The notes below the pieces were generated by a model that worked only from the letters and a program-made list of their open reading frames with translations, was not told the DNA's origin and did not search any database. The position numbers were made by a program, and so were the translations under genes. Below, piece by piece: positions 7,803 through 43,605 of a stretch of 47,216 bases of DNA (the stretch's first letter is position 1; each line of letters begins with the position of its first letter). The stretch covers positions 3,314 through 50,529 of the forward strand of contig JAULBX010026263.1 of assembly GCA_032358255.1 (NCBI GenBank), in the 5' to 3' direction. The DNA comes from Heterotrichella gracilis (taxonomy: Eukaryota > Sar > Xanthophyceae > Tribonematales > Xanthonemataceae).

Positions 7803-10800
7803 CTAATCATTGAAGAGGGCAGGGAAGGCCTGCACATGAATATGCACGCATGCTGACAGAGGCAGGCAGTTGACGCCTGTGGGCGGGGCTGTGCAGGACT
7901 TACACGCACCAGCGCACACCCGCCAATCCCGGCAATCCCGGCAATGACGTGCACCACCCCAACCAGCAGTAGGCCCTGCACCCCAATCCCCAAAATCCAT
8001 CCCCATCCACCTCCTGCCCATCCCCAATGAGCCTGGGTGCCTCCGGGCGGTGCCTGGTACTGGGCATGGCCCAGCAAACGTCTTGCGCTCCACCGTCTTG
8101 TATCCATACCATGCCACAACCCACGCAAAACCAACAGCACCCATTGGCCTCACGCCTGTTCTTAGGTCGAAGGACTTCATGCAACCCATGCACCAGCCCA
8201 CATCCCCCACACCCACCTCCTGACCATCCCCGATGAGCCTGGGCGCCGCCGGGCGGTGCCTGGGCGGGCGCGGCGCAGCTGGCGTCATGTGCTCCACCGT
8301 CTTGTACTCGTACCGTGCCGCCACCCACACAAACATGAGGAAGTTGACAAACATGAGGCCGCCCAATACCAGGAAGAAGAGGTCCAGCCTGCCATAATTG
8401 AGGTCCTTGGGGAGCCACCCGGGGCCGCCATCGCCTGAACGAGCGGTTTGAAATTGATTGCCTGGCTCAGATATATGGGGAGACATAAGGGGGCAGAATT
8501 GAGCAGAAGGGTGCAAATAGTTTGAGAGAGAGGAGGAAGATGATTTGTGCAGTGCTAGGTTTGATAGGTTCATGGGGGGCCAGCACCAGGAAGATCAAGT
8601 CCAGTCGGCCGCAATATCCAGCCACCATTGCTTGGAGGGGGGCAAAGGAACGGGTATGGGGGTGTGAGGGCAGGGTTTGGCCCCGTACGATGGGAGGGGT
8701 GCGGAAGATGAGGTGCAGCATTGAGGAGTCAACCAGGGACATCATCGAAGGGGCAGTGGGTAAATCAAATCTTAATTCTTACCTGGCTGCGTGATAGTGG
8801 TCACCAGCCAAATGATCCCGCCCGACAGGTAGGACCCTATGCATGTTGACAGCAGCTGCAGGGCCATGGAGCAAGAGCGCATCACATCCGGGGCCTGGTC
8901 ATAGAAGAACTCGAGCTGGCCAATGGAGGCGAGGACCTGCGGGGGGGGGATTGGCGGGCGGCGTTGAAGAGTTTGGAGGGCGACGGTGTTGGGGGCAATT
9001 GATGATGGCATTGACTGGTGGTTGCGTGGTCGCTCATCCCCCACAAGGCTGGGGCAGGCACCCCCCCGATCGCGGCACATGCCTCACGCACGCAGCGTAA
9101 TGCATACACATGCCCGCCTCTCATCCCCCCACCATACACAATCGCACCCGCCCACCCTACCCACCTCGCTGAGGCCAATCAACAGGTACTGCGGCGCCTG
9201 CCAGAACACGCTGATCTCCACCACCTTGTAGGTGTGGTTCTCAGCTGCCTGCACCACGTGTCCCTGCTCAAACAGCTGCAGGCGCTTCCACTCAAGCCAG
9301 GAGGCAACCAGCATGGCGGCCACAGACACAAGGAGGCCCCAGCCTGCACGAAAAATACACATTTGACTCAGCATGTCGCAGTTCTTTCAGCATTTGCGGG
9401 GCTTTTCCGCTGCATGTGAGGATGGTACCGTCAGCAAGAGAGGCAAGCAATCCCGGGAGGAGCCTATGTAATGTGGTCAGGGTTGTGCATTGCTTAGCGG
9501 CAGACATGGAGTAGCCAGGGGTCACACTTATTTCAATTCCAGTTGGGAGGCAATCAGCATAGCCGCCAAACACAAGCAGGCCCCAGCATGCACCCAGGTG
9601 GTGTTGTCAGCTCTGAATGTCACTTTGAAATCTAATTGTCCATTCCACCACCCCTCACCCCCCACTCCCCACCTATGCGTTTGAGCAGCGTGAGCTTGCA
9701 CCTCCACCTGGCCAGCATGGGGTCAAACACCCCGTCATACAGCGGGATGAGCGCGCAGATGCTGATGGTGTTGAACATGGTCAGCGAGGCCGAGGGGATG
9801 CTGAAGCCGTGGGGCAGGCGGCGGTCCATGAAGGTCCCTTGTTGCACAAATAGTGTGCCCATCTGCATGTAGACGGTCCAGTAGAGGACTGTGGTGAAGA
9901 ACACGGGGAGCATGCGCAGCACCAGCTTGACTTCCTCCACCTGGCGGGTGGAGAAGGCGCCGGGGCGGGGCTGGCCTGCGGGTGGTGGGTGGATGGGTGG
10001 GTGTAGGTGTGGGTTTGGGTCTCCCACCCACCTAGCTCGTCCACTTGCACCGCCTTGTCCAGCCACCGCAGGCTCTTGGCCTTGGCCATGGAGGTGCTGG
10101 GCGCACTCCCTGGCCTGTGCCCGTTTGCCCCCACCAGCAGGGGGATGCGCGCCTCGGGGTCGGTGGAGGTGCCGGACAGGGTGGAGGAGCGGTTCCGAAT
10201 GGCGGTGCCAATCACCTGCAGGGGTGGGGAGGTGATCAATGTGTGTACTATAGATTCTGATGATCGTCTCAGGAAATTTGTTTTCTGGTGGGTTTGATGT
10301 AAATTTGGCTCTGATCAGCAGGGAAAACATGGATGTGAGCGGTCCCAGATGGCTATGTTGTCCACCTAGTTAGGAAAAGGTTTGTAACTCTGAGCATTCA
10401 GTCCACCCTTATTGTTGACAACATTTTGCAGAGATGTTTTCATTTGTAATTTTGTAAATGGACCCATAAAACTAATGCACATAAGCAACATTAGTACCTT
10501 GATGACCCGGGAGAACGGGGACTCTGTTGGCTCCACGTGTGTATACAGGGGGCTGCCCGCCAGGAAGGTGACGATGGCGATCCCCATGCACACCGCGGGG
10601 ATTGCAAATCCCACCGCCCATCCCACGTTTTCCTGGATGTACACGATGACTGTGACGGCGATGAGGCTGCCGATGTTGATGGCAAAGTAGAACCAGTTGA
10701 AGAAGCTGTTCTTCTCCTTGCGGTCCTGCGCAGGTGTAAAATGATTTCTTTAAACGAAATGGATTTACCGATATATACACACTAGCTGTTCATTCCCTTC

Positions 10801-12462
10801 CCGGTTCTGCGCAAGTATTGTTGTCTTTTAGTCTAGACTTGATGCTGGTCCTTAGGGCAATGATGCACAGCAATCCACACCTTTCTCCTTCTGCTCCATA
10901 CATGTGCGCATTGCTAACACGCACTTCCCCGCCCCACAACAAACCCCAATACCCCATCAGGAGCACACCCCATAGCCCTACCTTGGGGTCTGTGAGATCA
11001 AATTGGTCTGCCCCAAACGCCGATACATTGGGCTTGATGCCACCGGTCCCCAGCGCAACAACGTAGAGCGAGCCAAACAGGATGGCGTTCTGGAAGGTGG
11101 TGGGGTACTCGTCCACTGGTGGGGTCAGGCCAGGTAGCCATGCGCTGAGGGCTAGGCTCACCATTCCCTGGCGACAGAGGGATTAGGGTTTAGGAATGAG
11201 GTTTTAGGGTTTGGAGGAGGCACTTCAAATGCGCTCAGCGCCAGGTTCACTAGACCCTGGTGACAGAGGGTTTAGGGTTGAACGGAGTGGTTTCATTGAC
11301 GGGAGATGATAATTATGTAGTTCGCAGCATTTACCATCAATTCAGGACCGTTTGAAGAGGACTGTGTGGCAAGCCGTGCTTTGGGGGCCAAATTCCAGAG
11401 CAGCATGCACTGGTTTCAATGTGCGATGGCATGCAGGCAATACGCAGGGTGGCAGCTGCCAGGGGGCGTACCACAAAGTAGATGCACGAGAACACCAGGA
11501 TGGTTTTGTAGCGCCCCCACAGCGAGTCCGCCAGCCATGCCCCCAGGAGTGGTGTGAGGTAGCAGGTGCCCTCAAACAGGCTCACTTGGATGGCTGCGCT
11601 GCCGGGGTCCTCGCCCATGACCCGGTACAAGTAGATGACCAGGTTGGTGGACAGTCTGCGATGCAGGGTGCAGGGTTAGGGTTACTTGGGGTTATAGGAT
11701 GTATCATTCAGGGTTTAGGGTCCTCGTCCATGACCCAGTACAGGTTGGTGGACAGCATTCGGTACGAGTGCCGGGGTTTAGGGTATAGGGTTTGAGGATT
11801 CAGGGTTGGCAGTGAACTCGGTGATGGCAACACTCTTGGGTCCGGTCCCAAGTTAATGCAAAATATGGGCACAGGAGAATCCCATGGCCGTGCGGATATG
11901 GGTGTGACAAGCGAAGCCAAGTGGGTGTCACAAGCCAAGCCCCCTGCCTGTCAAGACAGGCTGTAGACTATCAAGAGGGTCTGGGACTTACCCATAGAAC
12001 GCCAGCCGCTCACAGAACTCGTTACCTGCAAGCAGTAATACAGCATCCAGTCAAGCGCTTTGGGTCAAGAAATAATTTGAACCTGCTGCCCACATGCGAT
12101 GCAATGTACTGCTGCACTGGCACGCACGCTCCACAGGACCACACAAGCACACCCGCTGGGCCACATATCACATGTACCCAGAATGAAGGGACACCCAGCC
12201 AGCAACATGCAACAGGCATGCACAGGTCTCAACCAGGCCTGGCCTGGCAGTGCAGTTGCAGGAGCGGGTGCCCATGTGCTGTACATGCAATGTGCGCCAG
12301 TGGTGTTGCATGCCCCACAGGGATGGTCCCAGGCACTTCAGGGTTTTGCACACCCATACCTAGGATGAAGGGGCACACTGTGAGGAGCGTGGAGCGCCGC
12401 TTGGCCTGTGGTGTCGCCACCTGGAGCTCATCTGCCTCTATGGCGTGGCTGTGCGGGGCCAT
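7803..12462 (-). CDS. NRT1/PTR-family (NPF, POT/MFS) proton-coupled transporter, 11 exons
   Basis: The family carries nitrate, peptides or hormones with protons across membranes; the substrate cannot be told from sequence. Exons on the minus strand: 12462-12360, 12025-11992, 11655-11472, 11167-10982, 10725-10498, 10215-10032, 9975-9673, 9343-9165, 8936-8783, 8434-8217 and 7829-7803. All phases agree and give about 599 residues, the usual family length. Hallmarks are the proton-coupling ExxER motif ([11 protein letters not shown]) in helix 1, [65 protein letters not shown] and [16 protein letters not shown]. The cytoplasmic loop before helix 7 is long and polar (10215-10032). The last exon ([11 protein letters not shown]) is my choice from phase; reading on from 8217 without splicing also stays open to the same stop. 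Several introns contain decayed copies of exon junctions. Confidence 0.93.
8007..8330. repeat. Tandem duplication of the last long transporter exon (period about 206 bp)
   Basis: The segment around 8217-8330 (end of exon 10 with its AGGAG/GTGG junction) is repeated at about 8007-8125. Both copies keep the encoded YKTVE, the stretch that reads [10 protein letters not shown] in copy 1, and the AG/GT. The downstream copy lies in the predicted last intron and its downstream part is out of frame relative to the upstream copy. Confidence 0.8.
9298..9600. repeat. Decayed copy of transporter exon 8 acceptor region
   Basis: Bases 9298-9353 (start of exon 8 with its TGCAG acceptor on the minus strand) are repeated imperfectly at 9545-9600 inside the upstream intron, about 247 bp away. 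The copy retains the GCATGGC/GGCCCCAGC-like core and a TGC(A/T)-type acceptor region. Confidence 0.7.
11139..11280. repeat. Tandem copy of transporter exon 4 acceptor junction (period about 91 bp)
   Basis: The exon 4 start plus acceptor (11139-11186) recurs at 11231-11280, including TGCGCT, the CCCTGG(C/T)GACAGAGGG junction and a following TTAGGGTTTAG run. The copy lies in the intron upstream in transcript order. Confidence 0.75.
11606..11757. repeat. Copy of transporter exon 3 acceptor junction (period about 110 bp)
   Basis: GGGTCCTCG(C/T)CCATGACCC and CAGGTTGGTGGACAG occur in the true exon 3 start (11606-11655) and again at 11718-11757 in intron 2. The copy has lost about 12 bases between the two blocks. 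Confidence 0.8.
12171..12381. repeat. Copy of transporter exon 1 donor junction (period about 180 bp)
   Basis: The exon 1 end plus donor (about 12352-12381) recurs imperfectly at about 12171-12200 within intron 1, sharing the GAATGAAGGGACACCC-like block and a GTAC/GTAT at the junction. Confidence 0.6.
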
Positions 12463-13798: not shown

Positions 13799-15067
13799 CC
13801 ACCCCTAGTACTGACCCTAGCCACTGCTGTGTGTATCAGTTCGTCAAGGTCACGGTTGCAACGACGAGGGTCAACTAACGATGAGCGAGGGGACTCAGGT
13901 ATGCTGCTTCACCTTACCCCAAGTGCTCATATCAACTACTGCAGGGTACCTTGTAGGTCGAACCAACCTGCTGCTTGTGTGTGTCGGTGCAGACCTCTCC
14001 GAGACGATGAAGGCAGATATGGAGCGTATGCAGCGCATGCAGGCAGCCAAGCAACAAGTATCCAGTCCAACTTTCCAGGACAAGGTGGGTGGTGCTTCAC
14101 AGCTGCCACATCTAGTTGCATGCACCGGCGGGAACTTGGCAGCGGCATGCCAACACATGCTTAGGATGGCAGCTTTGCACTGTGGTGGCGCTGCGCTGTG
14201 GAATGCCCACCCTATGAGCACATGGTGCTTCAAGCCCGCATGTAAAGGTGTCGCACGTGGGATTTGCTCTATGCTAATGGCGCCAACTGCTTAGCTCTCC
14301 CGCGTGCAGGCCGACGCGCCATCGTCTGATGGCCTCGATATCAAGGCGGCGATCGACAAGGTGTTGATAGCTGATTTCTTCTTTGTGGTCCTGGCACTGG
14401 CTTGGCTCGCTGCTGGGGTGGCTGAGAAGACAGCACTCAACTCATCGGTACGCAAAACCCTAAAACCCTAAATAACGTCTCCTGGGGACACGACCAAGCA
14501 TGTGGATCAAGGGCTCTCTTGCATGGCGCTCTGCGCTGCATGACATTTGTATTGTAGATGTTGCGGCACGTGCTGTGTGGATGTGGTAGCTAGTTTAGGG
14601 TTTTGCATGAGCTTGCAGGGTTTTGCAGGGTTTTGCGTGTGGTGTGCAGGTGCTCATCGATGCCTGGTTCCCGATGTGGCAGTTTGTCTTCCAGCCTGCC
14701 ATTGGGGTCCTGATGCTGGGCGCGGTAAGAACCACTTGTACCAGCCCTTGGTACCCCACTATGCATATACCGGCCGCCCCTCGAAAGGGCGCTCATCAAA
14801 GCATTGCAGGTCAATTCCCCTCTTTACACATCGCAAGGCCATTTACATTGTGCATTTTTGCGCGAGTAATAAAGAAAACAAGTGTCGAGCGTGTTTAGTG
14901 GGCGCCTGCCAGTCCTGCTGTCCCCAAGCATGTCTGTTTCCTGCCTGCCAGTTTCTGCTAACCCCAGCCAGTTTCTGCTATCCCCAAGGACTTCACTCAC
15001 ACTCATGTCCTGCCTGCAGCTTGCATCTGGAGGTCTTGGCTGGCTCAAGGAAAATGGCAGCAAGTGA
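13799..15067 (+). CDS. Small two-helix membrane protein, probably organelle-targeted (copy A; 5' exon missing)
   Basis: Exons: one ending at 13898 in phase 1 (frame open from 13799, no ATG seen, Ser/Arg-rich CISSSRSRLQRRGS suggesting a transit peptide), then 13993-14084, 14310-14447, 14650-14724 and 15020-15067 (TGA). All phases agree. The order is: basic targeting-like start, a charged helical stretch (LSETMKADMERMQRMQAAK), one hydrophobic helix (ADFFFVVLALAWLAAGVAE), a Trp-rich segment (VLIDAWFPMWQFVFQPA), and a short second hydrophobic part (VLMLGALASGGLGWLKE). I do not recognise the family with certainty; a plastid or mitochondrial inner-membrane protein is plausible. A partial tandem copy lies 3.7 kb downstream. 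Confidence 0.7.
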
Positions 15068-15630
15068 GAGGAGCTGATCTTGCATGCAAATGCTGGGCAA
15101 ATTAGGAGAACAGCAGCAAGTGATACGGGTGATTTTGCATGCGAATGCTGTGCGTGTCAAGGAGAAGAGCAGCAAATGATAGGAGCTGATCTTACATGCA
15201 AACGCTGGGTGCATCAAGGAGAACAGCAGCAGGTGATTGGGGCTGGTCTTACATGCAAATGCTGGAAGGATAAAGGCATGTGAGGGTCCATGGGGTGGGG
15301 CACACATGATGGCAATTTTGGCGCAAGGCGATTGGACTGCGGGAGAGGCAGCAATCGTATGGCCCCAAGGCGTGAAGCAATGAGGTTCATGAAGCAATAA
15401 TAGCACATCAGATTGGCTGCAATTTGTCATGAAAACAGCTGTTGGGATGTGAGCCATGTGGGTATTGCCCAATAGGATGCAGTCACCATGACAGGCAGAT
15501 GGGACATGGACAAAATGCTGCTTTACAATGACATCTGGTCATGGCGAGGTTTAGAAATTTGGTCTGGAACTATAGACTCAAGCGCTGTATGTATTTCCCA
15601 TGTATTCAGCAAAGGTATCGTTGATAAGCC
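14082..15630 (+). repeat. Partial tandem duplication, copy A block
   Basis: This block (intron after exon 2 through about 0.55 kb past the stop) matches 17749-19140 in exons, introns and 3' flank, including the CCCTAA-bearing intron and the same donor and acceptor sites. It is the longer version because it carries extra 56-bp units after the stop. Confidence 0.88.
15059..15284. repeat. 56-bp tandem repeat, about four units, starting inside the last exon
   Basis: Units begin at 15059, 15115, 15171 and 15228, each starting AGCA(A/G)(A/G)TGA and containing (C/T)ATGC(A/G)AA(T/C)GCTG. The first unit overlaps the stop codon of copy A. The paralogous block at 18748 carries only one unit, so the array expanded after, or contracted since, the gene duplication. 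Confidence 0.9.
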
Positions 15631-15744
15631 TTTTTACCAAAGGTATGAGATACTCGCAAAAGAGCTGTGCATTTTTGAAAGTTCAATTGTAGGCACATCT
15701 GGGCGCTTTATCCCATCCTGTTGCCCGCTGCCACCATGTCCTGA

Positions 15745-17153: not shown

Positions 17154-18753
17154 GATCTGTCCAGAAGCAGCATCGAGCAGTGGGCTCGGGCAGTTCTTCA
17201 CCCAATCACGAAGGTGAGAAACTGCTGGGTGCTTCTTTCAGCAACTGGCCAGCTGGTAACCCGCACCGACACTGGCATGTGGCAGCTGGCAGTTTTGGCA
17301 ATACAGGTAGACTAGTGTCAATGCAGAGCTATGCCGGATATTACAAGTGCCCTACTAACTGTGCAGAGAGAAGCCTGGAAGCAGTTGAGGCAGTTGGGGC
17401 ATAGGGGGGGGGGTGGGGGGGGGGTATTGTCACCCAGCATTTGTGTGTGCGATGATGATGGCGCGGAGGACGACGCGATGGAGGTGGAAGAAGAGTAGGT
17501 GGAGGAAGAGAAAGAGGGGTGGGAAGGGGATCATGTGCCTGCAGCCCACGTGAAGAAGCTGGTAGCGGAGAAGAACCAGCGCAGGTCAAAGAATATCTCA
17601 GACTGTCACAACGGAGTCAGCAAGCTGTGGGAGGTGCGTAAGCGTAGTCACTGTGCAACCATAGTCACAGCACGCTCTGGACTCAGGGAACTGCCTGGCT
17701 GCCATAATGTATACCCCGGACTACCCCTTGAATATGCCTTCATTGTGCATGGTGGGTGGTGCTTCAGAGCTGCAGCACCTAGTTGCATGCACCGGCGTGG
17801 ACTTGAGAGCAGCATGCCAATACGTTTGTCGGATGGCAGATTTGCACTGTGACGGCGCTGCGCTGCGAAAATCATACCCCATGAGCACATGGAGCTTCAA
17901 GCCCGCATGTAAAGGTGTCGCACGTGGGTTTTACTCTCATGGCATTGCTGGTCACTCATTAGCTCTCCCGCATGCAGGCCGACGCGCCATCAGAAGGCCT
18001 TGACATTGAGGCGGCCATTGACAAGGTGTTGATAGCTGATTTCTTCTTTGTGGTGCTGGCACTGGCCTGGCTCGCAGCAGGAGTGGCTGAGAAGACAGCA
18101 CTCAACTCATCGGTACGCGAAACCCTAAAACCCTAAATCACGTCTCCTGGGGCACAACCATCATGTGGATCAAGGGCTCTCTTGCATGGCGCTCTGCGCT
18201 GCATGATTGTTTTGGTGTGAAATTTATGGTGCTGTCTGGTGCTGGTAGCTAATTAAGAGTTTTGCATGAGCTTGCAGGGTTTTGCAGGGTTTTACATGTG
18301 GTGTGCAGGTGCTCATCGATGCCTGGTTCCCGATGTGGCAGTTTGTCTTCCAGCCTGCCATTAGGGTGCTGATGCTGGGCGCGGTAAGAACCACATTATA
18401 TAATGGAAGCTCTCATTACCATCCCATGCCTGGGCCCCCTGACAGGGTGCACACCAGAGCAGGGCAGGTTCATTCCCTCGATTCATGGCCATGTATATTG
18501 AGCATCTGTGCGCGGGTAACACGCACTGAGAGTAACTTTTGAGTGTGTTAGTGGGTGCCTGCCAGTCCTGCTGTCCCTAGGCATGTCTGCCACAGCGTTC
18601 CCTGCCTGTAGCTGCCAATGTCTGCTATCCCAGCCAGGGTATGCAACCTCCATCCAGGGTATGCAATCCCAAATCATTCCACTCACCCTGATGTTCTGCC
18701 TGCAGCTTGCATCTGGAGGCCTTGGCTGGCTCAAGGAGATTGGCAGCAAGTGA
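17154..18753 (+). CDS. Copy B of the membrane protein, with different 5' exons (possible chimeric gene)
   Basis: The last three exons (17978-18112, 18309-18383, 18706-18753, TGA) match copy A closely. One codon's worth is deleted in frame in the first, there are few changes (DIKAAID to DIEAAID, PAIG to PAIR, KENGSK to KEIGSK), and all splice sites are kept, which suggests selection. Homology begins only inside the intron after copy A exon 2. Upstream lie unrelated candidate exons: 17154-17213 (DLSRSSIEQWARAV) and 17499-17633 (acidic, then HVKKLVAEKNQRRSK), each phase 0 and therefore able to splice onto the copy B exons. No ATG is identified. An in-frame TAG at 17496-17498 is harmless if it is the acceptor. 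The 3' exons are well supported; the fusion is a hypothesis. Confidence 0.6.
17404..17424 (+). other. G-run with quadruplex potential
   Basis: Two long G tracts separated by a single T, in the intron between the candidate 5' exons of copy B. It may form a G-quadruplex in the transcript; it may equally be an unreliable homopolymer call. Confidence 0.7.
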
Positions 18754-19140
18754 GAGGGGCTGATTTTACACATGGAAATGCTGTGCGTGTCAAGGCATGT
18801 GAAGGGTCCTTGGGGCAGGGCACACATGGAGGCGATTTTGGGACAAGGCGGGCATAGTGCGGCAGTGCCAGGAATGTACGACGCTCAAGACGTGGAGCAA
18901 CAGGGTCCATGAAGCAACCACAGCACATCAGATTGGCTGCAGTATGTCATGGATACAAATAGTGGGATGTGGGTACTGTGGGTACTGCCCAGTAGCACTC
19001 AGGCAGCATGACAGACAGGCGGGACATGGATGAGGGCTGGCTTACGTCCGGCGGTGGCGAGGTTGACAAATTCGGTCTGGAACCATGGAGTTAAGCGCAT
19101 GCAATTTTTCTCATCCTATGTATCTCAGCTAGGGTATCAT
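17749..19140 (+). repeat. Partial tandem duplication, copy B block
   Basis: The counterpart of 14082-15630. The left boundary lies within the intron at GGTGGGTGGTGCTTCA; the right boundary fades at about 19140 after a shared GGCGAGGTT...TCTGGAAC segment. Confidence 0.88.
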
Positions 19141-21208
19141 CTCGCCTGGGGTTCTGATGCAAAGTGTGTCTTGGCTTTTCCCGCAGCGCGTAGTTAAAAT
19201 CTTAGGGGTGCAGTACAGAACAGCACTTTATATGATTGGTTCTGCTTTGCCATACTGACCCAGTAGTTTTGTGCATACAGCTTTATCTACTGATGATTTC
19301 TCACGTTGAAAATGTGCTGGCCCAGGGGAGGAAACCCGCATCGTCTGAGGGTCAGCAGGCAATGCGCTCAAATATATATTTTTGACTGCCGCCAAAGACT
19401 TGCAGGACCTTGGTGCCTGGCCCATATGGCCCGTAAAGCCGGGGATAGCCCCTGGGATTTGCTGTCACGGTGGCGGAGGACGTAAACCTGAAGACCATGT
19501 TCTCATGACTCTCATGGCTCCAGAGGAGGCTTTTCAATTTCAAATGTATATTCAAATAATTTGAACTGGTGGGCACTTGCAGCTGTCGGTTCGCTATTAG
19601 TCATCGAGAACCTGCTAATGAGCAGCAAGGCGACAGAAAAGTAGGCTGGAATTTAGGACACCCCCCCAAGCAGCACCCACTTTTTTAAACTTTAGAAGGC
19701 AGCGGTGAACTTTTCAGGACCCATTATCTATTGGTGCATGCCATGCCGAGCTGATCACAAGGGCTCTCCAACACGGCTGCAGCTCGTACTGTACTGTAAC
19801 AGTCCTCTGACGGCCCACCTCAGCACCGAGGGACTCCTGGAGTTTTAAGTGACGCTACCCGCTTCAACTATCTATCCTGCACACGTTTTATATGCTTGTG
19901 AAGCCCACCTGCCAGGAGCCACTGGCTGAGACTCTCTGTGGCTGCTGTGTCCCTGGTTCATAACCGTTTTACATGTAGCAACCCTCCACACCTGGTGCAT
20001 AGCATGCCGGCACTGGTCTCGCTAGTCTGTAAAGTAAGTCGGGGACAGAGCCCTCCAAGTTTTTGATACATGCAGTCAGGCTCAGGCTTCAGCATACCAG
20101 CCCCTCAGGAGTGAAGAGGCTCCTCAGCCTGCTCAGTGTGTGAGGTAAGCTGCAGTGGGTTACCCTTCATAGAAGGCTAAGCCTTCAAACTGGCCGACTC
20201 TGGCTGAACCCATTTACGTGCACCAACTTCAACGTTACATGTGAGTCAGAGTCTATTAGCAACTTGCAGACTGCTATTGTCAATGAGTAACACTCAGTCT
20301 GCCAAGCGGCTGCCCCATCGACGTATACACTCCGCTTGAAGGTGACGCTGTGTGGAACTGAGCACTTCCATGTTTGAAAATCTGCAGTGCACCCCGCCAA
20401 GACAACGCTTGTGGGTGGAGCATGGGCATCGTTGCATTCCACAGTCACATCGAACCCTCAGTTGGGAACTTGGAATTCAAAGACTGCCAGCATGCACACT
20501 GAGTGCATGTCAGGAGCTTCAAGTTAGTGACTTGTGTATGTGACTTCACAGTGCAGGCTGTGCCAGTTCCAGGCTTACAGCAAGTGACACCATGATCAAG
20601 AGCCCATTTGCAAACCTCCCTCCACAAGCCCCATTCAGCTCCAAACTCAAGGGGCGTCAGCGCACTTCAAGGTCCTCCAGCATGGGAGATGGAGACCTGG
20701 AAAGTGAAGTCCCTTCATATACAGGTGTGTACAGCACGAAGTCCTGACAATGCCTTGATGGGAGGGGCTGTTCAGTGGTGCACTGCCAGGAGTCCTGGGG
20801 ACAGTGACATGCATTGGCGCATACCCAGTCAGCACTATTCAGTCACTCATACCCACTTACTGCCACCTCCATGGTTTTTGGGTCACTGTCAGCCTGCAGC
20901 CTGCATGTATAATCTTGCTTCCTTGGTTCCCCAGCATGCGTGTACCTAGCACAAGGGAACATGCGCAAAGATACCAATATTGCAATTTTTACCAAAAAGG
21001 GGCCCAACCCAAGATATGCATATGTGCGCAAATGTTCAAATAATACTACATGTATGTACATGTGAGCACACATAAATTTCTTTCTGTGCCACATGCATGC
21101 AAAGGCTTGCATGTCCCAAATTTCTATCACCTGCCCTCTTGACTCGGGTCTCCTAAACTCACTGCAATCACCATCTGAATTACCTGAACCCAGCTCCCCG
21201 CATTGCAG
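19141..21208. other. Stretch with no clear gene; Cys-rich minus-strand fragments
   Basis: The minus strand has cysteine-rich open pieces at 20185-20448 (AGCTADFQTWKCSVP) and shorter ones at 20445-20627 and 20647-20835, with recurring W-x-C patterns. They are not in one frame and I find no convincing splice sites, so they may be remnants of an extracellular protein or chance. The right end should hold the promoter and the first exon(s) of the B3/SAND gene. Confidence 0.4.
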
Positions 21209-27200: not shown

Positions 27201-28248
27201 CAATGAAGCTCAATTATTTGCAGGAAATGGGTTATAATTATTCCTATTGCATCTTCGTGCAAGAAATGGGTAATAATCATTCCCATTGTATTTTGTGCAG
27301 CAACCTCAGACGGATTGGATCGCCACCACCACCCTGGTTCAGGGCACAGCACAGGGCATGTTGCACAAGGGCAGGGTGAGGGTAGCCACGCAATGAGCTG
27401 CCCTGCAGCGCTCACACCTGTTGAGAGGGCTTCCCTGGAGCTGCTTGAGCAGGCGCGCAAGGAGCACGAAGCCTTCATGGCAAAGTACGTACTACGCAAT
27501 ATTCCAAGATGCCATGTTGCAACAATACATGTGAAGTATGACGCACTGCTTGCGCAGTTATATTTTGTTAGGTTGACTCCTGAAGGGCAGTTGGTTAACT
27601 TAGCTTGCAATTGCATGAGATCCATTATATTACCTCAGCATGCATTTCACCACATCGTTGGGCAGGATACCGTAACCCTAAACCAGCTCCCGTGTGTTCT
27701 GTAGGTACGCTGCCATCTTCCAATCCATCCCTGCAAGCTACCGCCCGGGGCTCATGCCCCCGGCCCCACCAGCCAACGACGTCCCACAGCCGCTCCGGAG
27801 CTACCCCCGCCACCCGCCGCTGCAGCTCCCACACCCCTCCCCTCTCGCCTACCCAGCGCGCCTGGATGGCTCTCAGTGCTCTGAAAACAGCGCCTCCACG
27901 TACCCAGCACTCAGCAGCCCCAACTACTACCCCGCAGCATGGTCCCAGCTCATGATGCCGCCACCCGCTGCCCCGCATCCCCCTCCAAGGGGAACGCCAG
28001 AGTGTCATCACAGCCACTTCACCGGGGCTCTTCAGAGGGGTTTGGAGACCAGCCTTCACACGCCCTCGGCTCCAAGACCAACCCTGATGAGGGCAAGTTC
28101 CACGCCTGTCAACCCCACCTACCTGGGCGTGCGCCCAACGCACTATGTGGCGGAAACCAGGGAGGGAGGCCACATGCCTTCACCGATGCAGAAGGGTTCT
28201 GTGTATCGCGGGAGGCCTGTCAGTGCGCATTCAGGGCGTAACATCTGA
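21209..28248 (+). CDS. B3-domain plus SAND-domain transcription regulator, 15 exons (N-terminus open)
   Basis: Exons: 21209-21378, 21664-21765, 22038-22140, 22248-22318, 22585-22761, 23191-23478, 23861-24102, 24496-24632, 24923-25182, 25419-25640, 26010-26204, 26380-26482, 26758-27021, 27301-27484, 27705-28248 (TGA). Every phase agrees, giving about 1,019 residues plus a missing start. After an acidic stretch (DPFDFDDDEDVEVD), residues about 25-155 form a B3 DNA-binding domain (VLKVLTNSDVS, VVLPRAQ, DVNGKYWDFLLKTW, FILEQ, WNVKQGETAALC). Next comes a Cys/His cluster (CTRTQGCTKLSGHKGFCCGH), then Ser/Pro-rich and basic linkers. A SAND domain follows at about 490-560 (VCTNGRAFGKKVSPTEFERL, QKKWKQSIFV), then a Pro-rich tail. 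A nuclear DNA-binding regulator is likely. The donor after 22761 is GC, not GT. Confidence 0.88.
24322..24461. repeat. Intronic tandem repeat, two units of about 70 bp
   Basis: TGTGTCTCAAAGACTCAAAT followed by GTCATGTGATCAGTATAGGG and GCAATTTT occurs twice in the intron before the exon at 24496, the two copies nearly identical at their ends. Confidence 0.88.
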
Positions 28249-29966
28249 TATGTAGTACTCGTGATGGCAGCAATGCTGAAAAGCAATGAACCTTCTGCAA
28301 TGGGCCCTGTGGTACGGCTATAGAATATGGGCTGCTGACAAGAACAATTAAATCCATTGAATGCAATGTATCATCTCAGCCCGTTCTTCTGTCCAAGTTG
28401 GACTGCAATATGCATAGCTGTCCTCTGAAATGCAATGACACAATTTCAATACTGTCACAGTCTAGTAGATATTTTGCCAGTCATCGTGCTTCAGCTGGAA
28501 GTGTTAGCAGCACTGCAACGAGGACATGGCCATTGAATAATGAGATTAACCTGGATAATGGATGGTGTACACCTTTGAATGCATGTCAAGCCATCTATTT
28601 ATTTTCTGGTGACCTTGTTTTGCAGTTCAATCTTTGTCAGTCACTGACTCAGTACTTGTATCAAGTACAGAAAGTTTGGTCTTGAGATCACCTGCATGCC
28701 AATAGCCATGTTACACTACAGTAGTTAGTGGGGTTTTCTGAGCAGCGATCGCTTAGAAGTGCTTTTGCTGCAACACTGGTCATACATTATCCTTGTCATA
28801 ACCTGAGAATATCCATCCAACGTGCAATAAACGCATCTGATTTCTGCAGATGTCTCTGCAGCCATCGTAGCGTAGGCATAGGGCTAGGACTACAAATAAC
28901 AACGCCTGTCCGGCACAGCTGTTAGGTAGGGTTCGGCAGAATACAGTTTTAAATGGATACAGGCTGCATTAAGGTAATTCAGTAGCCAAATGTACAGTCA
29001 CTAACGGTTAGTTTCAGGGACCGGCGTTACTCGTTGCTTACCCAGATTTCAAACCAATAGCGAGCGTCTACGGTATACCTGTTGGCTCTTGGGGTACCTT
29101 TGTACCACAACAGAAAACATTTTTGGGTAAAATAATGTATCACAGGATTACAGTAGTGCAAATTGTTACTTTGCCTAAATTATTATCTCCATGACCGTTG
29201 TTGCTGCGGGCAAGGAAAATAGGCAACAATTGCATTTTATACCTACATGAAACGTACAGTTGTTTGGACGGCGGTGAAAGCTGCTGTGGCCTCTGGTGTA
29301 TGATTGATTGGCATGTACTGCATGTCCCCAGGTTTACACGCCACATTAGGTAAGCTGCAGCGCTTCCGGTGTTGTAACACAAGCAGGAACAATCTACACA
29401 CAATCTGTCCTCGTTTTCCCCTCCCGGCCTCCAGCGCCACGAGGCCGGGAGGGCTCGTTTTTCTGCATTTGGATTACCATAGCAAACAACAGTGCAGTGC
29501 ACTATAAAAATCCAGTAGACTTACTGATATTGGGGGTATGAACTATCCGTTTATTCCGCACAATGAGATTAACAGTTTTTGACAAAATAACGATATGATT
29601 TTTTATTTTCACTGTTTGTTTGTTGGCAATGCTTCAAGCACAGCAACAGCATACATAAGCAAACAGCAGTTTTCAGACTTGCTTGCAAACGTGCAATTGC
29701 CCTGTCCTTGCCCCTCCTTGGGTTTGCTTGACTTGGCACACGATTTGGCAAGGTATTGAACAGTTGTTGGACAACGCACTACTTTGGCACGTACTTACCA
29801 CTGTATTCAACATAGTTCCAATCTGCCAGCCTCGTCCCAGCTAAGCCGCATGGAGTAAACTGTGGATGCGCTGTATATGCATGCATGTGGCAAGTGCCAA
29901 TATTTTAACAACTTGTGACTAGTCAGCCCTTGAAACCATCTACTTGACACAACCTGGAACGCTGGT
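28249..29966. other. Intergenic stretch
   Basis: AT-rich, with no supported gene. The left part is the likely 3' UTR of the B3/SAND gene; the right part should contain the PCC1 promoter. Confidence 0.5.
29419..29453. repeat. GC-rich hairpin, perfect 13-bp stem, 9-nt loop
   Basis: CCCTCCCGGCCTC at 29419-29431 pairs exactly with 29441-29453 in an AT-rich surrounding, preceded by a T run. Confidence 0.9.
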
Positions 29967-30678
29967 ATGGGGAGTGACCGCCCTTACAAATTGTAAGTCA
30001 AGTGCCCTGTTGTCTAGTTGCCCATACCCAAGCTTGCCCCCTCAAAGCGGTAGAGCTGCGGCTACCAAGTGTGAAGTTGCAAGCCCGCTGGGAATCATAC
30101 TGAGTAGTTCTCAACTTGCTGGGCAGCCAGTGTGAGGTGGAATATGCTTCTGAGGAAGACGCCACCATCATCAGAAATGCACTGGCAGTAGACCCTGAGG
30201 TGGGTCACCAGGCCAGGCTGGCAGCCCAATTGGTACATGATTATACTTCGTTATCAGCTTCTGCTCTTTGCATAGTCTGCATTGAGAATACTTCTATGGG
30301 CACACCAACACCCTGGTGGCTTGTCTTGCAGTTGCGGCCAGAGATGGTCACCAGGCAGCTGCTGGTTGAGGGCAACAAGCTCAAGCTGTAAGCCACAAAT
30401 GCTTGCTCTTGTGCTGTGCAGTATCAACCGTGTATGAAACAAAAGACTGGGCCTTGTCACATTTGCCTTATTTGATCACATATTGGTCTGAAATTATTTG
30501 GTGGCGTTTGTTGTTTGTAAGCCGCCGCCTGCTGAACGCGCAAGCTGATTGCAGGGACTTCTGTGCCACAGACGCACGGACCCTGAGGGCAGCGGTTGGC
30601 ACTACGTGTGACCTGCTGAACCTAGCAACCAGGACTGTTGAGAAGTTCAAGCTGAAGAGCGACGCCATGCAAGAGTGA
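29967..30678 (+). CDS. PCC1: PCC1/LAGE3-type subunit of the KEOPS/EKC complex
   Basis: Four exons, all in phase: 29967-29992 (ATG, donor GTAAGT), 30127-30199, 30332-30387 and 30555-30678 (TGA), giving 92 residues, typical for this small family. Recognisable features are FQCEVEYASEEDATIIRNAL, VDPELRPEMVTRQLLVEGN, and DARTLRAAVGTTCDLLNLA followed by TRTVEKF, matching the Pcc1 beta-sheet/helix layout. Pcc1 is the dimerising subunit of the KEOPS complex that makes the t6A modification at position 37 of ANN-decoding tRNAs. The start was chosen because it gives a phase-2 exon joining exactly to the acceptor at 30126. The small exons and the good joins make the model strong. Confidence 0.9.
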
Positions 30679-31167: not shown

Positions 31168-34100
31168 CAGGCCCCAGAGAAGATTGATTTCCCGCCATTG
31201 CAAATTTTGGTGGTTGAGGGGGGGATGGGGGTGGCGGGGTGCCGGGTGCACAGACGGTGGGGGGCGCACCGCATCCTGCTCAAGGTGGGTGGAGTAAAAT
31301 TTACATATATAAGATATTGGCAGTGAAGAAAGCCAACACCCTGCCATGGCTTATCAGGCCAGGGAGCCTCCTCAGGTCTCGAATGGGCAATGTTTCAACA
31401 GGTCTTCATATAAATGCATATAGTTTGGGATGTAGCTATTTGAAGCCAGAACAACATGTCATTCTGCATGGTGATATTTTATATGTTTTTGCTTCCATGC
31501 GCAGACCCCCAGCGTTTCCGTGAATTTCCTCTTCATGCAAATGGCTGATCATCCCCATATACTCCCCTTGCTTGCAGCTGCCAGATGTTGGCAGGTCCAA
31601 GCGCACACAGCAGCAGCTCCTCCTCAACCTGGCCACCATGGAGCTGTACATTGCGGGCAGGTGAGGGATACCCTAGGGTGGGGTTTTGTGCCCATTAGAA
31701 ATCCTCAGCAAGCGCACACAGCAGCAGCTTCTCAACCTAGCTACCATTTGGGTTGTACATAGCGGGCAGGTGAGGGGTTTTGTGCCCGGTAAGGAAACCT
31801 TAACCGCTTGACAGCCCTCGTGCAACTGTGCGATGCAGTGCAAAGGCAGGTGAAAACCCCAGGGCAGGGCTTCATGCAGGCAGACTGAACTCCTGAATTG
31901 AACATCTCTTATGTTGCTGCCATGTGGTTGTTTTGGGTGAATTCAGGGCCCGACTAAATCAACGTTCAAGGGGAATCACTACGCTGTCCAAGCCCCGGGC
32001 GCCAAGATTCCCACGTTGCCGACACCGCATCCCCGCTGACCTACCTCTATCATGTACTATTTCAACACCGCCAAATTTTGCATCCCCACAGATACTGGGT
32101 CGTCGTCCTGTACAAGCCCCGGGACAACAAAATGGTCCTCTTTGCCTGCCAGGGGGTCGGCATCGGCCCAGAAGCTGAGGATGATCGTGAGGAATTCTAC
32201 GCCACTGAAATACCCCCCGAGGGGCCTAATTTGGGCCTGCCTGTGTGCAAGGCTCTGGCCTATCTGAGCCTCATGCTGAGCCAGACCAGGCCATCTGTGC
32301 AGGTAATGACGTTGAACTTGATTAAAACAATGGAATAATGAATTACCATTTTGAAATGATATGTCTGTTCGCCACAATCTGGTCTGGTATTGCCCCTGAT
32401 TAAAAAGGGGTGCTGATTTTAGATGGCACAAGCTCACTTAATTTGGATCCCTTGGTGCAAGTTCCCTTGGAGCATGTGGCATTTGTGGCGGATGGGCCCC
32501 CAGTGGCAAGGTGAGTAAGGGCTGGTGGGTGGATGCAGTAATTGATCGCATACCTTCAACAGTGCTTGACCTCACCCTTTCAATCCATTGACCCCTTTCC
32601 TTTTCCCCTCTGGCCAGCTGTTGACTTTACTTCCCGGCAGCAGCCACTCCGACCTGGCCAAAACCCTAAACCTTAAACTCTAAACCATACACCATGCACA
32701 GTTCTTTAACCCTGCACACCCCAACTTGCAGCAACCAGCCAGCCCTGCACCCCCACCTAACACAAAGCATACCCTTAAACCCTACACAATTCCTTGACCC
32801 CACACACCCCAATCCGCGGCGGCTAGCCCGCCCTGCACCCCGACCTGACCAAAACCCTAAACCCCAAACCCTGCACAGTCCCTTGACCCTACACTCCCCA
32901 ACCCGCAGCAACCAGCCAGCGCTGCACCCCGACCTGGCCAAAACCCTAACCGACGGCGCGGGGTTCATCCGACGTGACGTGGCAGCACAGGCCATGGCAC
33001 AACTCAAGCTGGGCACTGCCCTGGTTCCCTCAGCGCTGCAGTTCCGGTATATGGGTTGCAAGGGCATGCTGGTGGTGGCGGCGGAGCACCCCCTGGTGTG
33101 GGGGGAGCTGTGCAGGTGGGTGGGGTGGTGGGTGTGGCGGTGGTGCTGGGTGGTGGGGGAGGAGGGGGGTGTCAAAGATGACATGGGTGTGAGGTGAGCT
33201 GTGCAAGTGGGATGGGTGCGGGTGGGTGTGGTTGAGAGAGGCGTTGACAGATGGTGTCTGAGGCATTCCCTTGTGTATGTGTGACAGGAATGTGACCATA
33301 CACCATGCCCATCAAACTGACCTCCCACCCTCCCTCCAGGCAGCACGGCGTGACAGACCACAGCAAGACCCTCTGCTGCACGCACCCCTTCCATCGCAAG
33401 GTCCACATGCAAAATAAAGACATTGGGCACTTACACCCCATTACAACAAAGCACTTCCCTGAGTTTGCACACCACAACTGCCACACGCAATGCAATTGAA
33501 AAACCCTGTAGTTGACCTCTCAAGCCCTCTTCTCCCAGGCAACACGGGGTGACAGACCTCAGCAAGACCCTCCTGCTGCGCCCCTCCCAGCGCAAGGTCC
33601 GCATGTCGCACCCCGATGAGCTGCAGACCACGCTGGACATATGCAGCTGGTCGAGCCCCGCACCGTCTGCATGCATCAACAGCCAGGTGCGGCTTGATGC
33701 ACAGCCCGAAACCCTTGGTTAGGGTTATGCTGTGGGTGTGTGGAAATGACCGGATGCTCTGGGTGCCAGCATGGGCATGTTGGCATAGTAACAGGCCTTG
33801 GCGAGGGTAATTTTGTGGGCATGGCCAAAATTCCTTGGTGAAAATATCACCTTTTGAGGGAAAATATCTATTACTTCCTGCATTTTCACCATACTTGCAA
33901 TGACATTTTTTCTAAACATGAGTGCTGCCACTCTCACAGGTGATCCCCTTGCTGGAGGCCCTTGGAATGCCCTTCCCAATCCCACAATTTCCTGGAGGAG
34001 GCGGTTCAGGAAATCGAATCCCCGTTTGTTATGGATGAGCTGCGGACCTGCCTGATGGCCAGTAGCAGCGGACGCCAGGGGGAGGCAATCGGCTTGATGA

Positions 34101-37100
34101 ACGCGGGGTTCCAGGTGAGATACTGATCAATTACAATTATAGTTACAATTGCGAATTAGCGGGCGCCACGGGGAGGCGATACGCTTGATAAAATTTGGGT
34201 TCTAGGTTATTGAAATCTATGAATTGCCAGCCAGAAATTGACTCTTTACCACTTACTCTGCAAGAAAGGCACATAAGACCGATCATTGTGGTTAGATGCG
34301 ACTCGTACTGTGTCACATCTTCTATTTCCACTTGAATGACCCATTCAGAAGGTCAAAAAGTTAAACACATGCTAACCAGGTGACCTGGTCCAATATCATT
34401 TTATCTGGATCGTACCAGCAATGCTGCAATGTCAAGTAGTAAACAAGTGCTGACCTATCATCTGCCTGCCTGTCCTTTTAAGTAACTAACTACATGACGG
34501 CTCTGTTTCAGTTGACTCCTGGTTCGCGACTGCAAGTGGTGGTGAGCAAGATTGTGGCTGGCCAGCTTGAGGGGCTGGTGGATGGGAATGCTGGGTCAAT
34601 ACGGATCAAGGTACCAAATTCACAACAGGTGAGTAAATGCAGCCAATTGGGTGTGGACTCGATGGTTAAATGATTGCCAGGTAAGTGGCACAGCCCGCAA
34701 TGTAGGTAAATGTAGGTAAATACAGGTAGCTGTCGCACCAAGTAAACTGTGACAATGCAGGTACATGCTGCAGGAGGTGAGTGTTGGTCATGATCACACA
34801 GCTGCTTCCCAACTCTAACCCTGCATAGAATATACTACCCCTCGTACACCAGACATCTCCCACTCGAATCGTAACACCGCATCAAGCAGCACCAACACCT
34901 GCCCGCAGGCCTACATGGTCCCAGACCCTACAGGAACTCTAGGGTTTGGGGAGGCCTACTTCCACAGCACCCGCGTCGATCCCCAGGGACAGCCTGTGGG
35001 GATTGTGGAGGGCAAGGTCCTTGCCTTCCGCCTCCCCGCGCACCGCACGCATGACATCGTCCCCTTGCGCTGTGTGGCCAACCCGCACTTGGCTGACTAC
35101 CGGGATGTGCTGGTCATCAACACGCAAGGTGGGTGCAGGGTTTAGCTTTAGGATTTTGAATGTAGAGTTTAGGGTTATTGTGACGCTCTACTCATATCAC
35201 AATGTGAGCCTAGGGTTTAGGATTTTGGTCATTGCCTTCCGCCTTCCCGCGCGTTGCGCGCATGACATCATTCCCTTGCGCCGTGTGGCCAACCCGCACT
35301 TGGCTGACTACCGCAACGTGCTGGTCATCAACACGCAAGGTGTGGAAATCTTTGGATGCGAGGGGTTGGCCTGCCAGACTGGGACCTTTGAGCATCGCCT
35401 GTATAGGTTGCAGCCTTCAAGTGTTGTTTCCATTGGCAGTGTTGTTGGCAACTTGAAAACTGCATACTGCTAGGTGGCTTTGCATATCAGATATTGCCTG
35501 ATGCCCTTACTATTTACAATGTCAACACCAGCCTCCTATGTTATTGCAATAGGAATAAATAAATAATGCATGTGTTAGGTTTTTTATAGATTAAGTTATT
35601 CACATATATTTGTGTGGTCCCCTGCAGGGCCCCTGGGGCTGGCATACCTCATGGCACAGGGGGATTACGACGGGGACCAAGCCACCATAATCTGGGATGA
35701 CAGATTGGTGGCAGGAGCAAACCAAAGGGTAGTGGGGCAGCTCATAGATGAAGTGCTGCACGAGAGCGGCTTGAAACACCTGTTGGGGGCGTCGCCAAAT
35801 GCGGGGCATTTGCCGGGACCCAGGGAGGAGCCTGCATCCGCAATGGTGGCGGCCACAATCCCGGGATCTGGGAAACAGCAGCGACTGTCAGCGCAGTATG
35901 GCGTCATCCGAAGAGGAGACCGAAGCAGTAACACTTGTATAGTAACTGGGATGATGCCAGGTGGCGGGTGTGGGAGGGCGCAGGTGCAGAAGGAGGGGGG
36001 GTATGGGCTGGGGGGGGACGCATTTGGGAGGGAGTCATCTGGCAGCTCAGCAGATTCTGGCTCCTCGGTGGTCGATTTCCCCATCCCCGGGATTACTTTT
36101 GGCGTGGCGGGGATGGCGCTGCCAAGTCAGAGCCCAGGACCCCATCACATGGCCTCGGCAGGTACGCACATGCAAAACCCTGAACTCTAAAACCCTGATA
36201 AAAGGCTCAACATTAGGAGAATTATATGGCCTTGCAATTAGTCACATGCAAACCCTGCTGCATTTTAACAGGAAAATAAAGAGCCCTAAATGAGATCACA
36301 TGGCCCCCGCAGGTACCCACAGGCAGAACCTCCAGGATCAAGCTCAGCTGCCTGCTAACTGCAGGCCCGGGGATGGCAGCAACGCTTTCCCCACGACTCC
36401 CATAATATCCTCAGCCATGCCGGGGAGCAACGGCATCCCCAAGCATCACCCAGGAACCACACCGGGGGCAGACGACAAGGGACAGAACGGCAATTTCTAC
36501 AGCTATTCCGAGGAGGCGGATCTGGGGAAGTTGACGCTGGGTGAGGCTGGGAGCTATGGTGCCGCGCTGCTGCTGTACATTGCTAAGAATGTGGGGGTGA
36601 GCCAGATGGTGCGGCAATATGATGGGGACTTCAAGCGGGCCACCAATGCCCTAGGGGCTGAATCAGAGCTGGTGAGTGGCAATGGTTTTAAACCCTAAAC
36701 CCTAAACAGAATCCAGTACTGCTCAGTGGGAGGAAGCCCCTGTGGCTAGACTTAATATTGCAAGATGGGTCCCTTGTTGAAAAGCCTGCAAAGGCCGCAT
36801 GAAGGGGCCTTCATCGTAATTTATGACCAGCACAGCATATAACCCATCAGGCATACGTATTAGGCATACGTACCACCCGAGACTCTTGGCGGGTGAGTTT
36901 TGACACTCTTTCCTTTGACAAGTTTTGCCTGTGCTCAGGCTCGGGATGTAGCTGCCTGCTTCACAAAGGCTCTGGATGCCCCCAAGTACGGAGGATTCAA
37001 GCTGAAGCCGGAAGACCTTACAGCCAGGTTCAAAGACCTCGCAGTGCCCTGGTGGATGCCTTCATCCAAAGGGATTGAGACTGAGAGGTGTGTTGTCTTC

Positions 37101-38330
37101 CTGTGCACAAGCTGGCTTGCAACATGTGGGTGTTCAGGGTTTGTCATGAGAACCCTTAAATCCATAAATTAGGGCCCAACCCGTTTCTGTGTCGGGCTGC
37201 AGGGCCAGCCATGTGTGCACCACAGCGTTGGACAAGCTGCTTCTCACGATGAAGGAGCACATCTCCCGCCACCGAGATCAGATAATTTGTCCAAGCAGGG
37301 AAGGGGAGATTCAGTTTGATGACGATGGGTGGAAGGTACGGCCTTGCTACTCACGAACAATTATGCTCCAATAGCTGGAAATGTTAACAAATAAACCAGA
37401 TTTCAAGCGCTACTTACTTTCACTTTCAAGCATTTCTGCTGGGGGTGTCAGTTGGTCCTGGATTGCCTCTTACAATCACATACCCAGAGGACACCTCGTG
37501 ACCTCAGTGACCACATTCCTGGTATGTTGCTCTCGACTTTCTGGTATGTATTTTAAATGAATCCGTTTTTGTTCCTGCAGGACCTTGCCATCACTGCGTG
37601 GGCCACTGGCTTCTTCAACAGGGTGAAAGGCGAGCTGAGGGAAGTGATCGGGGAGGGGTTTGGGACCCGGGACTACATCAGCAGGGTGATTCAGAAGGCC
37701 ACACAGGAGCTGCAGGACCGCGCGGGGCTGCTGGCACGGCAGAATAGGTCACGGGACCGCACGGAGATCGCTCGCCTGTCCTACGCAGTCTACAGGTATG
37801 GCGAGGTTAGAGAATCAAGGGCGCACAGGGGGAATTCCCGCAAATGGCAAATGCAAATGGGATTCCGTACGTGTGTTCCCAGATTCGTTGTCTCACCCTG
37901 TGTCAAGGCATGGCATGGTAACTCTTAATCCAGTGCACATCTTGTACTGCCACAGTTGCAATGGTGCATGGCATAGCATTCGCCGCTTTCTCCTACAAAC
38001 CCCAAATCGTTAACCCCAAACCTTAAATCCTAAACCTTCTTCAACGCGCCTCTTGAATGCCAGATTGCACTGGTTTTGTACAAATTCCCTTTTCTCCACT
38101 ATTCCTACAATTATCACTTCCTTCATTCCTCCCTTCATGTCGTGACCGGGTGCTGCAGGGCCCAGTGCGAGTGCGAGAAGCGCAACGGCAAGTGCATGGC
38201 CACTGCCTGGCTGGTGTGTGGGCCCTGGCTCAGCGACATCAAGGCGGGGCTACAGGTGGTGGCAGCTCGGCATGACCTAGTGGAGGGCAAGGGGGCAAAG
38301 GGGGGGCGCAAGAGGAAGAAGAGGGCATAG
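31168..38330 (+). CDS. Eukaryotic RNA-dependent RNA polymerase (RDR), about 16 exons
   Basis: RDRs copy RNA into double-stranded RNA for RNA silencing. Well-supported exons: 31578-31660, 32092-32302, 32909-33115, 33539-33686, 33940-34114, 34512-34628, 34909-35128, 35628-36161, 36313-36671, 36939-37087, 37203-37335, 37581-37795, 38159-38330 (TAG). Weaker: 31168-31284, 31505-31519, and about 32423-32510 (phase does not join its upstream exon). Motifs: LTDGAGFI, FRYMGCKGMLVV, LLLRPSQRK, AYMVPDPTGTLGFGEAYF, and the catalytic QGDYDGDQATIIWDD with the metal-binding DxDGD (canonical form GGDLDGD). The C-terminus is basic (GGRKRKKRA), nuclear-signal-like. One exon has an extra base in a TTT run (33988-33990). 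Several introns hold copies of exon junctions. The identity is secure from 32909 on; the N-terminus is not. Confidence 0.88.
31596..31800. repeat. Intronic copy of the RDR exon ending at 31660 (period about 108 bp)
   Basis: AAGCGCACACAGCAGCAGCT, CTCAACCT(G/A)GC and GCGGGCAGGTGAGGG occur at the true exon end and again at about 31708-31800, including the donor and the following GGTTTTGTGCCC. Confidence 0.88.
32640..32955. repeat. Tandem array of the acceptor and first codons of the RDR exon at 32909 (about 95-bp units)
   Basis: Three to four diverged units contain the acceptor block (CCCAAC...CAGC), the exon start (AACCAGCCAGC(C/G)CTGCACC) and a CAAAACCCTAAAC tail. Only the last unit joins a long open exon, so the upstream ones are decoy acceptors with short open stretches. 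Confidence 0.85.
33336..33610. repeat. Intronic copy of the RDR exon at 33539 (period about 200 bp)
   Basis: CCAGGCAGCACGGCGTGACA and the next roughly 60 bases at 33336-33412 match the true exon start at 33535-33610. The copy has an acceptor-like CCAG and an open frame but lacks the conserved residues (LLLRPSQRK is replaced). Confidence 0.88.
34064..34210. repeat. Intronic copy of the RDR exon 33940-34114 donor end (period about 92 bp)
   Basis: The last 50 bases of the exon plus donor recur at about 34156-34210 with substitutions; the copy's junction reads TAGGTT instead of CAGGTG. Confidence 0.82.
35026..35345. repeat. Intronic duplicate of the RDR exon 34909-35128 end (period about 197-210 bp)
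   Basis: About 110 bases including TTGGCTGACTACCG, GTGCTGGTCATCAACACGCA and the AAGGTG donor are repeated at 35223-35345 with high identity and an intact reading frame, so this could also be an alternative exon end. Confidence 0.9.
36144..36331. repeat. Tandem duplicate whose two AGGT sites form both ends of an RDR intron (period 151 bp)
   Basis: ATCACATGGCC(T/C)C(G/C)GCAGGTAC occurs at 36144 and 36295. The first copy's AG/GT is the donor (exon ends 36161) and the second copy's AG/GT is the acceptor (exon starts 36313). The intron, 36162-36312, is 151 bp, equal to the spacing of the copies. Confidence 0.9.
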
Positions 38331-43444: not shown

Positions 43445-43605
43445 GCGCAGCACCAGCTTTGATGCAACAGCTGTGGTGCACGTCCCGCCTCAGTAAACCT
43501 CAAAGCAGCTCTGTTGCAGCAGCATTGGCAGGGTTTTGACTCCTGTAGATGGCAAGGGCAGCAGGTCTTGAGCGCAGGTCTACTTTGATGCAGCAGCAGT
43601 AATGC
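43427..43605. repeat. Tandem duplication over the FKBP stop codon (period about 127 bp)
   Basis: AGGGCAGCAGGTCTTAAGCG (around the stop) and the following CTTTGATGCAACAGC recur at 43554-43605 as GCAGCAGGTCTTGAGCG and CTTTGATGCAGCAGC. The copy lies in the 3' UTR. Confidence 0.85.

Follow-up and report, generated by a model that had tools for sequence, protein, structure and literature searches.

Short direct duplications of exon edges in the introns of Heterotrichella gracilis and their association with telomere repeats

Exon-edge echoes in the window

The window analysed here, a stretch of 47,216 nt from the xanthophyte Heterotrichella gracilis, is part of contig 375 of a genome of 68.5 Mb in 903 contigs. 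It carries a POT-family transporter gene and a gene for a eukaryotic-type RNA-dependent RNA polymerase (RdRP), both confirmed by comparing concatenated exon translations with Pfam (PF00854, E 1.4e-97, and PF05183, E 2.1e-49, respectively); Rfam and tRNA scans of the window gave no matches. A previous, sequence-only reading of the window had proposed that the introns of these two genes repeatedly carry decayed tandem copies of the adjacent exon border, which we call echoes, and had cited ten duplicate pairs. Our results confirm that this pattern is real and not limited to two genes, as it is found across 20 further stretches of the same genome as well as in the window.

The detailed scan covered the window and these 20 stretches of 10 kb (247,216 nt in total), whose contig numbers were drawn at random, low numbers being kept, and which were taken at the fixed position 20,001-30,000. 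Local duplications were collected by a blastn self-scan (score of at least 20), alongside a repeat search of the window, and exons were called with a gene finder trained on these same sequences (269 confident calls out of 548). Exon borders were examined by a more sensitive border scan, using probes of 120 nt with tails limited to 20 nt. Low-complexity matches were filtered out of the scans.

Nine of the ten cited pairs are significant direct duplications in the self-scan, the tenth (12171/12352) being weak and visible in the border scan only. That each copy spans an exon-intron border is borne out by the exon calls for nine pairs but not for 8007/8223, at the 3' end of the transporter gene, where the exon call takes in the whole upper copy and one third of the lower one. 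The corresponding features, with a donor echo outside the earlier set, are the following.

8180..8333, minus strand: upper copy of the duplication 7977-8129 / 8180-8333 at the transporter 3' end (77% over 156 columns); exon-intron border not established
9532..9593, minus strand: acceptor echo of 9286-9349, from the transporter exon 9165-9343 (78%)
11229..11279, minus strand: acceptor echo of 11140-11190 (82%), telomere-like words within and between the copies
11718..11799, minus strand: acceptor echo of 11605-11700 (68% over 98 columns), telomere-like words within and between the copies
12175..12209, minus strand: weak donor echo of the first coding exon, border 12360 (71% over 35 nt; coordinates converted from an offset)
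31709..31776, plus strand: donor echo, with a decoy donor, of 31598-31667, from the RdRP exon 31578-31660 (85%)
32645..32951, plus strand: acceptor echo array with a period of about 89 nt and three to four copies, the last carrying the functional exon start at 32909
33318..33409, plus strand: acceptor echo of 33513-33605, exon 33539-33686 (82%)
34158..34207, plus strand: donor echo of 34067-34116 (78%)
35227..35342, plus strand: donor echo of 35016-35131 (90% over 116 nt)
35132..35226, plus strand: filler separating the copies at 35016 and 35227; it contains TTTAGGG-type words and does not recur past the second copy (p 0.72)
43553..43605, plus strand: further donor echo, of 43426-43479 (83%)

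At 32925-32951 the coding exon itself holds AAAACCCTAACC, telomere-like letters being translated near the exon start.

Enrichment at exon borders and decay of the copies

The self-scan finds 95 local direct duplications in the 247,216 nt, against 1 in one third-order Markov shuffle, and the window is typical of the genome in this respect (17 duplications in 47 kb, compared to 78 in the other 200 kb). Of 240 donors, 41 have a copy of the exon edge in the neighbouring intron, against 3 of 480 unrelated-exon controls (Fisher p 1e-17); for acceptors the figures are 29 of 239, against 1 of 478 such controls (Fisher p 9e-14). The enrichment at exon borders postulated from the two genes is thus recovered by self-alignment. 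The echoes reach the border itself in 35 of the 41 donor and 23 of the 29 acceptor cases; matched lengths range from 17 to 115 nt, the upper limit being set by the 120-nt probes, and the median spacing between copies is 175 nt. With copies restricted to at most 250 nt and to overlaps of no more than 20 nt, near-copy coverage is highest at the exon edge (11% at donors, 9% at acceptors) and declines on either side, to 0.1-2.6% between 60 and 300 nt into donor introns and to close to zero deep within exons. On the acceptor side it climbs again to 8% beyond 240 nt, a rise that we attribute to donor echoes belonging to the opposite intron end.

The duplications are direct and local, in agreement with the proposed short tandem duplication: within 700 nt, 71 copies of exon pieces in noncoding DNA lie in the same orientation as the exon and 1 is inverted. 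This sole inverted case, at 4344-4497 of one sampled stretch (L013), is a 97% copy of 76 nt of exon that overlaps the exon in part and forms a hairpin.

The decay of the copies was followed in the 49 of the 95 pairs in which one copy is at least 30% exonic and the other not at all. Exon and echo differ at 121/920 first, 106/920 second and 211/923 third codon positions. Of the 43 exonic gaps, 40 disrupt the reading frame; a single poor alignment contributes 12 of the 43, and leaving it out gives 28 of 31. Such a pattern is consistent with a copy free to change at any codon position, alongside an exon in which most changes are silent; in these pairs the frame is not kept in both copies, as it would be in duplicated functional exons. 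One-lineage divergence, estimated for 43 of 48 pairs, ranges from about 1% to 40%, which is the spread from recent to old that had been anticipated. The decoy splice sites noted earlier are indeed carried by the echoes. As for the idea that echoes may lengthen introns, the indication is a difference of medians between echo and non-echo introns (438 and 362 nt at donors, 400 and 378 nt at acceptors).

Filler, telomere repeats and arrays

The sequence lying between the two copies, hereafter the filler, was analysed for the nearest echo of each border (n=70). It is 2-326 nt long, and 30-150 nt long in 57 of the 70 cases. In 30 of the 37 pairs tested (out of 48; gap of at least 30 nt), the filler is no closer to the sequence past the echo than are mismatched pairs. 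Most single echoes therefore depart from a plain tandem copy, since no clear repeat of the filler follows the second copy. A complete tandem duplication with a decayed intron part is not favoured for them; it is retained for the arrays described below. After masking of telomere words, none of 2,016 pairs among the 64 fillers of at least 30 nt shows homology, a result that argues against a shared inserted element in our sample. The echoes are in this respect unlike introners, for which homology from site to site would be expected; what they have in common with them is insertion that shapes introns, which introners do on a mass scale in many eukaryotes (PMC9860276).

What the fillers do have in common had gone unmentioned before: 38 of the 70 contain a TTTAGGG/CCCTAAA word, against 15.6% in matched non-echo introns. 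TTTAGGG is the telomere repeat of this genome, with perfect arrays of at least seven units on 11 contigs, lying within the first bases of five of them and at base 138 of a sixth. TTTAGGGTTTAGGG occurs 2,845 + 2,784 times genome-wide, compared to 2 + 3 times for its reversed control, with perfect seven-unit arrays confined to those 11 contigs.

In the first 40 nt of introns, on the donor side, telomere words of either orientation are dense, at 8-14 per kb. On the acceptor side they are mainly in the CCCTAAA orientation (C 13.0 versus G 4.2 per kb at 20-40 nt before the exon; 71 C words and 0 G in acceptor fillers), and some far acceptor bins, with fewer introns, match the donor-side density (13-16 per kb). 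Among the 41 echo donors, 21 have a telomere word within 80 nt, the first word starting at a median of 13 nt into the intron. The association extends to the whole genome: a donor word is followed within 28 nt by GGGTTTAGGG 924 times, versus 206 for the control word, and by CCCTAAACCC 598 times, versus 118. Telomere words are thus 4.5-5 times over-represented just inside donor words, relative to a single control word of equal frequency in the sample. For GGGTTTAGGG, two bins farther out hold fewer matches, with 410 in the bin 29-57 nt and 309 in the bin 120-148 nt. Conversely, when telomere clusters are taken as the starting point, 50 of 178 are flanked by a duplication, compared to 11.5% of random positions, the other 128 being without one at that score; 43 of the 50 involve an exon call (35 confident, 8 weak). 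Telomere tracts flanked by duplicated target DNA, as expected from telomere-repeat insertion at breaks, are therefore present. Interstitial telomeric repeats of primates have reportedly been inserted at break sites with target duplication, and by that account they too are short internal telomere tracts between duplicated target DNA. The tracts studied here differ from them in lying at exon edges, in numbering thousands and in the 17-115 nt matched. Among the literature matches listed, which covered few subscription papers, no report of telomere repeats concentrated at splice sites was found by title or abstract start.

Some echoes are arranged in arrays. Ten stretches chosen for their repeated matches, and therefore examples picked without exon calls rather than a sample, contain between two and five units each, with a spacing of mostly 85-112 nt and in some cases 55-68 nt, in the order exon edge, donor, telomere tract and then exon edge again. 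On another contig (contig 76, about 114191-114805), repeated donor and telomere matches recur at multiples of about 96 nt, apparently as a long array. Two further features of this part of the analysis lie in the window.

15045..15265, plus strand: array of some four units of 57 nt at an exon edge called with low confidence, with no telomere tract
36162..36312, plus strand: AGGT-type intron between the duplicates 36129-36179 and 36280-36330 (76%; shift 0)

The first belongs to one of two gene paralogues, 14081-15640 and 17748-19160, about 79% identical over their first part. The second paralogue has a single unit where the first has the array, which indicates that such arrays change after gene duplication. 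In both, a CCCTAAA tract lies no more than 10 nt from the corresponding donor (14447 and 18112).

The second feature bears on the proposal that duplication sometimes creates new introns. In AGGT-type intron gain, a short tandem duplication arises in a gene and the extra sequence is spliced out (PMC3443670); in a potato RdRp gene, one duplication crosses an intron-exon boundary and a further tandem duplication, of 83 bp, lies inside an intron (PMC4974935). As far as the passages covered go, our echoes resemble these cases as short tandem duplications in a gene whose excess is removed by splicing, but differ in that almost all add to existing introns, often with telomeric filler. Judging from its sequence, the intron 36162-36312 fits a textbook tandem-duplication intron: the AG|GT junction is at the same position in both copies, with the intron between them. 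It is the only clear case among 228 introns, a doubtful one (shift -3) being found in another stretch (L015). New introns of this type are therefore not the main outcome. Several of the other pairs scoring at least 16 resemble echo copies, or repeats that the gene finder took for exons; the proposal stands for one fitting pair and for a rare event.

At its two ends the window carries 54 C (1-54) and 38 AC repeats (47141-47216).

Origin of the echoes

From the anatomy of the echoes, their tandem orientation, exon-edge location, unconstrained decay, telomere association and arrays, we infer a staggered break, its fill-in, the capture or addition of telomere DNA and growth of the intron from its edge. 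On this reading, which we hold with a probability of roughly 45%, echoes would be scars of DNA-break repair at exon edges, consisting of the edge, often a telomeric filler, and the edge copy. The staggered break would have one exonic and one intronic end, the latter between a few and some tens of nt into the intron, and its fill-in would double the exon edge and the splice site. Filler DNA, often telomere repeats, would be joined between the two copies, and splicing would retain the exon-attached copy and discard the filler and the second copy. Because splicing removes both, the event would be nearly neutral and the second copy would decay. Some units comprising exon edge, splice site and telomere tract would later be amplified into arrays. 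Each new insertion would displace earlier ones towards the intron interior, so that introns would lengthen from their edges; at borders with several echoes, the nearest echo is closer in sequence than the second at 10 of 12 (p 0.019), which lends weak support to such growth.

A fill-in of this kind has a precedent. In mouse and human cells, the CST complex guides Pol alpha-primase fill-in of staggered breaks, made with Cas9 nicks, and small tandem duplications result; CST also acts at telomeres (PMC8355091). The duplications described here are likewise short, direct and local, as those formed from nearby opposite-strand nicks are; the passages covered of that work report neither telomere repeats between the copies nor a splice-site bias (PMC8355091). 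The match in kind is an analogy and is suggestive only. A more ambitious version would have breaks form preferentially at exon-intron junctions and be repaired by the telomere-maintenance machinery, through fill-in and repeat addition or capture, as a standing engine of edge-inward intron growth and occasional new introns; we consider this version rather improbable.

Several results weigh against break repair at exon edges. The reading offers no reason why the putative breaks would fall at borders. When borders and intron interiors are compared with matched probes, before classing of the interior matches, the contrast is milder than near-copy coverage suggests (37/178 versus 17/178 at donors, p 0.005; 25/174 versus 13/174 at acceptors, p 0.058). 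No telomere word is found in 32 of the 70 fillers, and arrays duplicate the intron part too, as plain tandem duplication would. In 7 of the 37 pairs the filler resembles the sequence past the echo, and 4 of these 7 are among the 8 youngest pairs; it is thus not wholly unrepeated there, the likeness being weak, with scores of 13.5-19.5, at the floor of the test and far under those that fillers of 41-134 nt would reach if copied in full. The words do not show the strand polarity that telomerase would produce, those of CCCTAAA type lying towards the left copy, and simple telomerase extension of broken ends was rejected on this ground. Finally, the exon calls come from a locally trained gene finder, with a Pfam check for two genes only.

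The main rival reverses the order of events: short telomere-like tracts would lie near splice sites from some other cause and, being unstable through slippage, stalled forks or G-quadruplexes, would lead to tandem duplication of the neighbouring exon edge. The clustering of telomere words at donors in both orientations, the arrays, in which the tract is duplicated together with the exon edge, and the paralogues, which share a donor-side tract at 14447 and 18112 while neither donor is among the 70 echo borders, all agree with it. It is less compatible with the single-echo fillers, mostly unrepeated after the second copy (30/37), and with the 32 fillers devoid of telomere words, and we regard it as possible but doubtful. 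Tandem duplication at a uniform rate would instead explain the border preference by survivorship only, exon-internal events being purged and border events remaining visible longer since the exon copy is conserved. Local duplication is indeed common in the genome, and coverage deep in exons is close to zero. Matched probes find 62/352 matches at borders and 30/352 in intron interiors, all interior matches being counted, so that the interior depletion is smaller than the roughly tenfold one judged from coverage. With a detectability of 55% when both copies are intronic, a uniform rate predicts 34 interior matches, to which 30 is close. These 30 comprise 10 that overlap known echoes, 4 at weak exon calls, 6 with a telomere word and 10 that are intron-only; once they are classed, the 10 or 16 counted are well below 34, and the interior cross-control gives 3/352. 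Since purely intronic duplications should be common if tolerance alone were at work, survivorship or tolerance alone is probably insufficient, a judgement that depends on this classing. The tolerance of intronic copies invoked by the sequence-only reading probably falls short of explaining the border preference. As the drop of coverage to 0.1-2.6% in donor introns also speaks against a uniform rate, which moreover does not predict the clustering of telomere words at donors, we consider it unlikely.

Selection on the echoes or fillers, which would serve as alternative exons or enhance splicing where splice sites are weak, could be suggested by the mostly pyrimidine-rich telomere words near acceptors. 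It is very improbable given echoes that are frame-broken and changed at every codon position, and given that both telomere orientations are about equally common at donors. An assembly or haplotype artefact might be feared in a draft of 903 contigs; with copies diverging by about 1% to 40% and differing by frame-breaking gaps, a telomere-donor association that is genome-wide and no second copy found of the window segment 31500-34200, it is hardly credible.

The lengthening and the origin of introns are hard to study, as their scars are usually too old to read. In H. gracilis, about one border in seven (70/479) keeps a readable scar, and these scars cover a range of ages, which makes the process countable, datable and testable. 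The tie between telomere repeats and duplication close to splice sites, if true, would link intron evolution to break repair.

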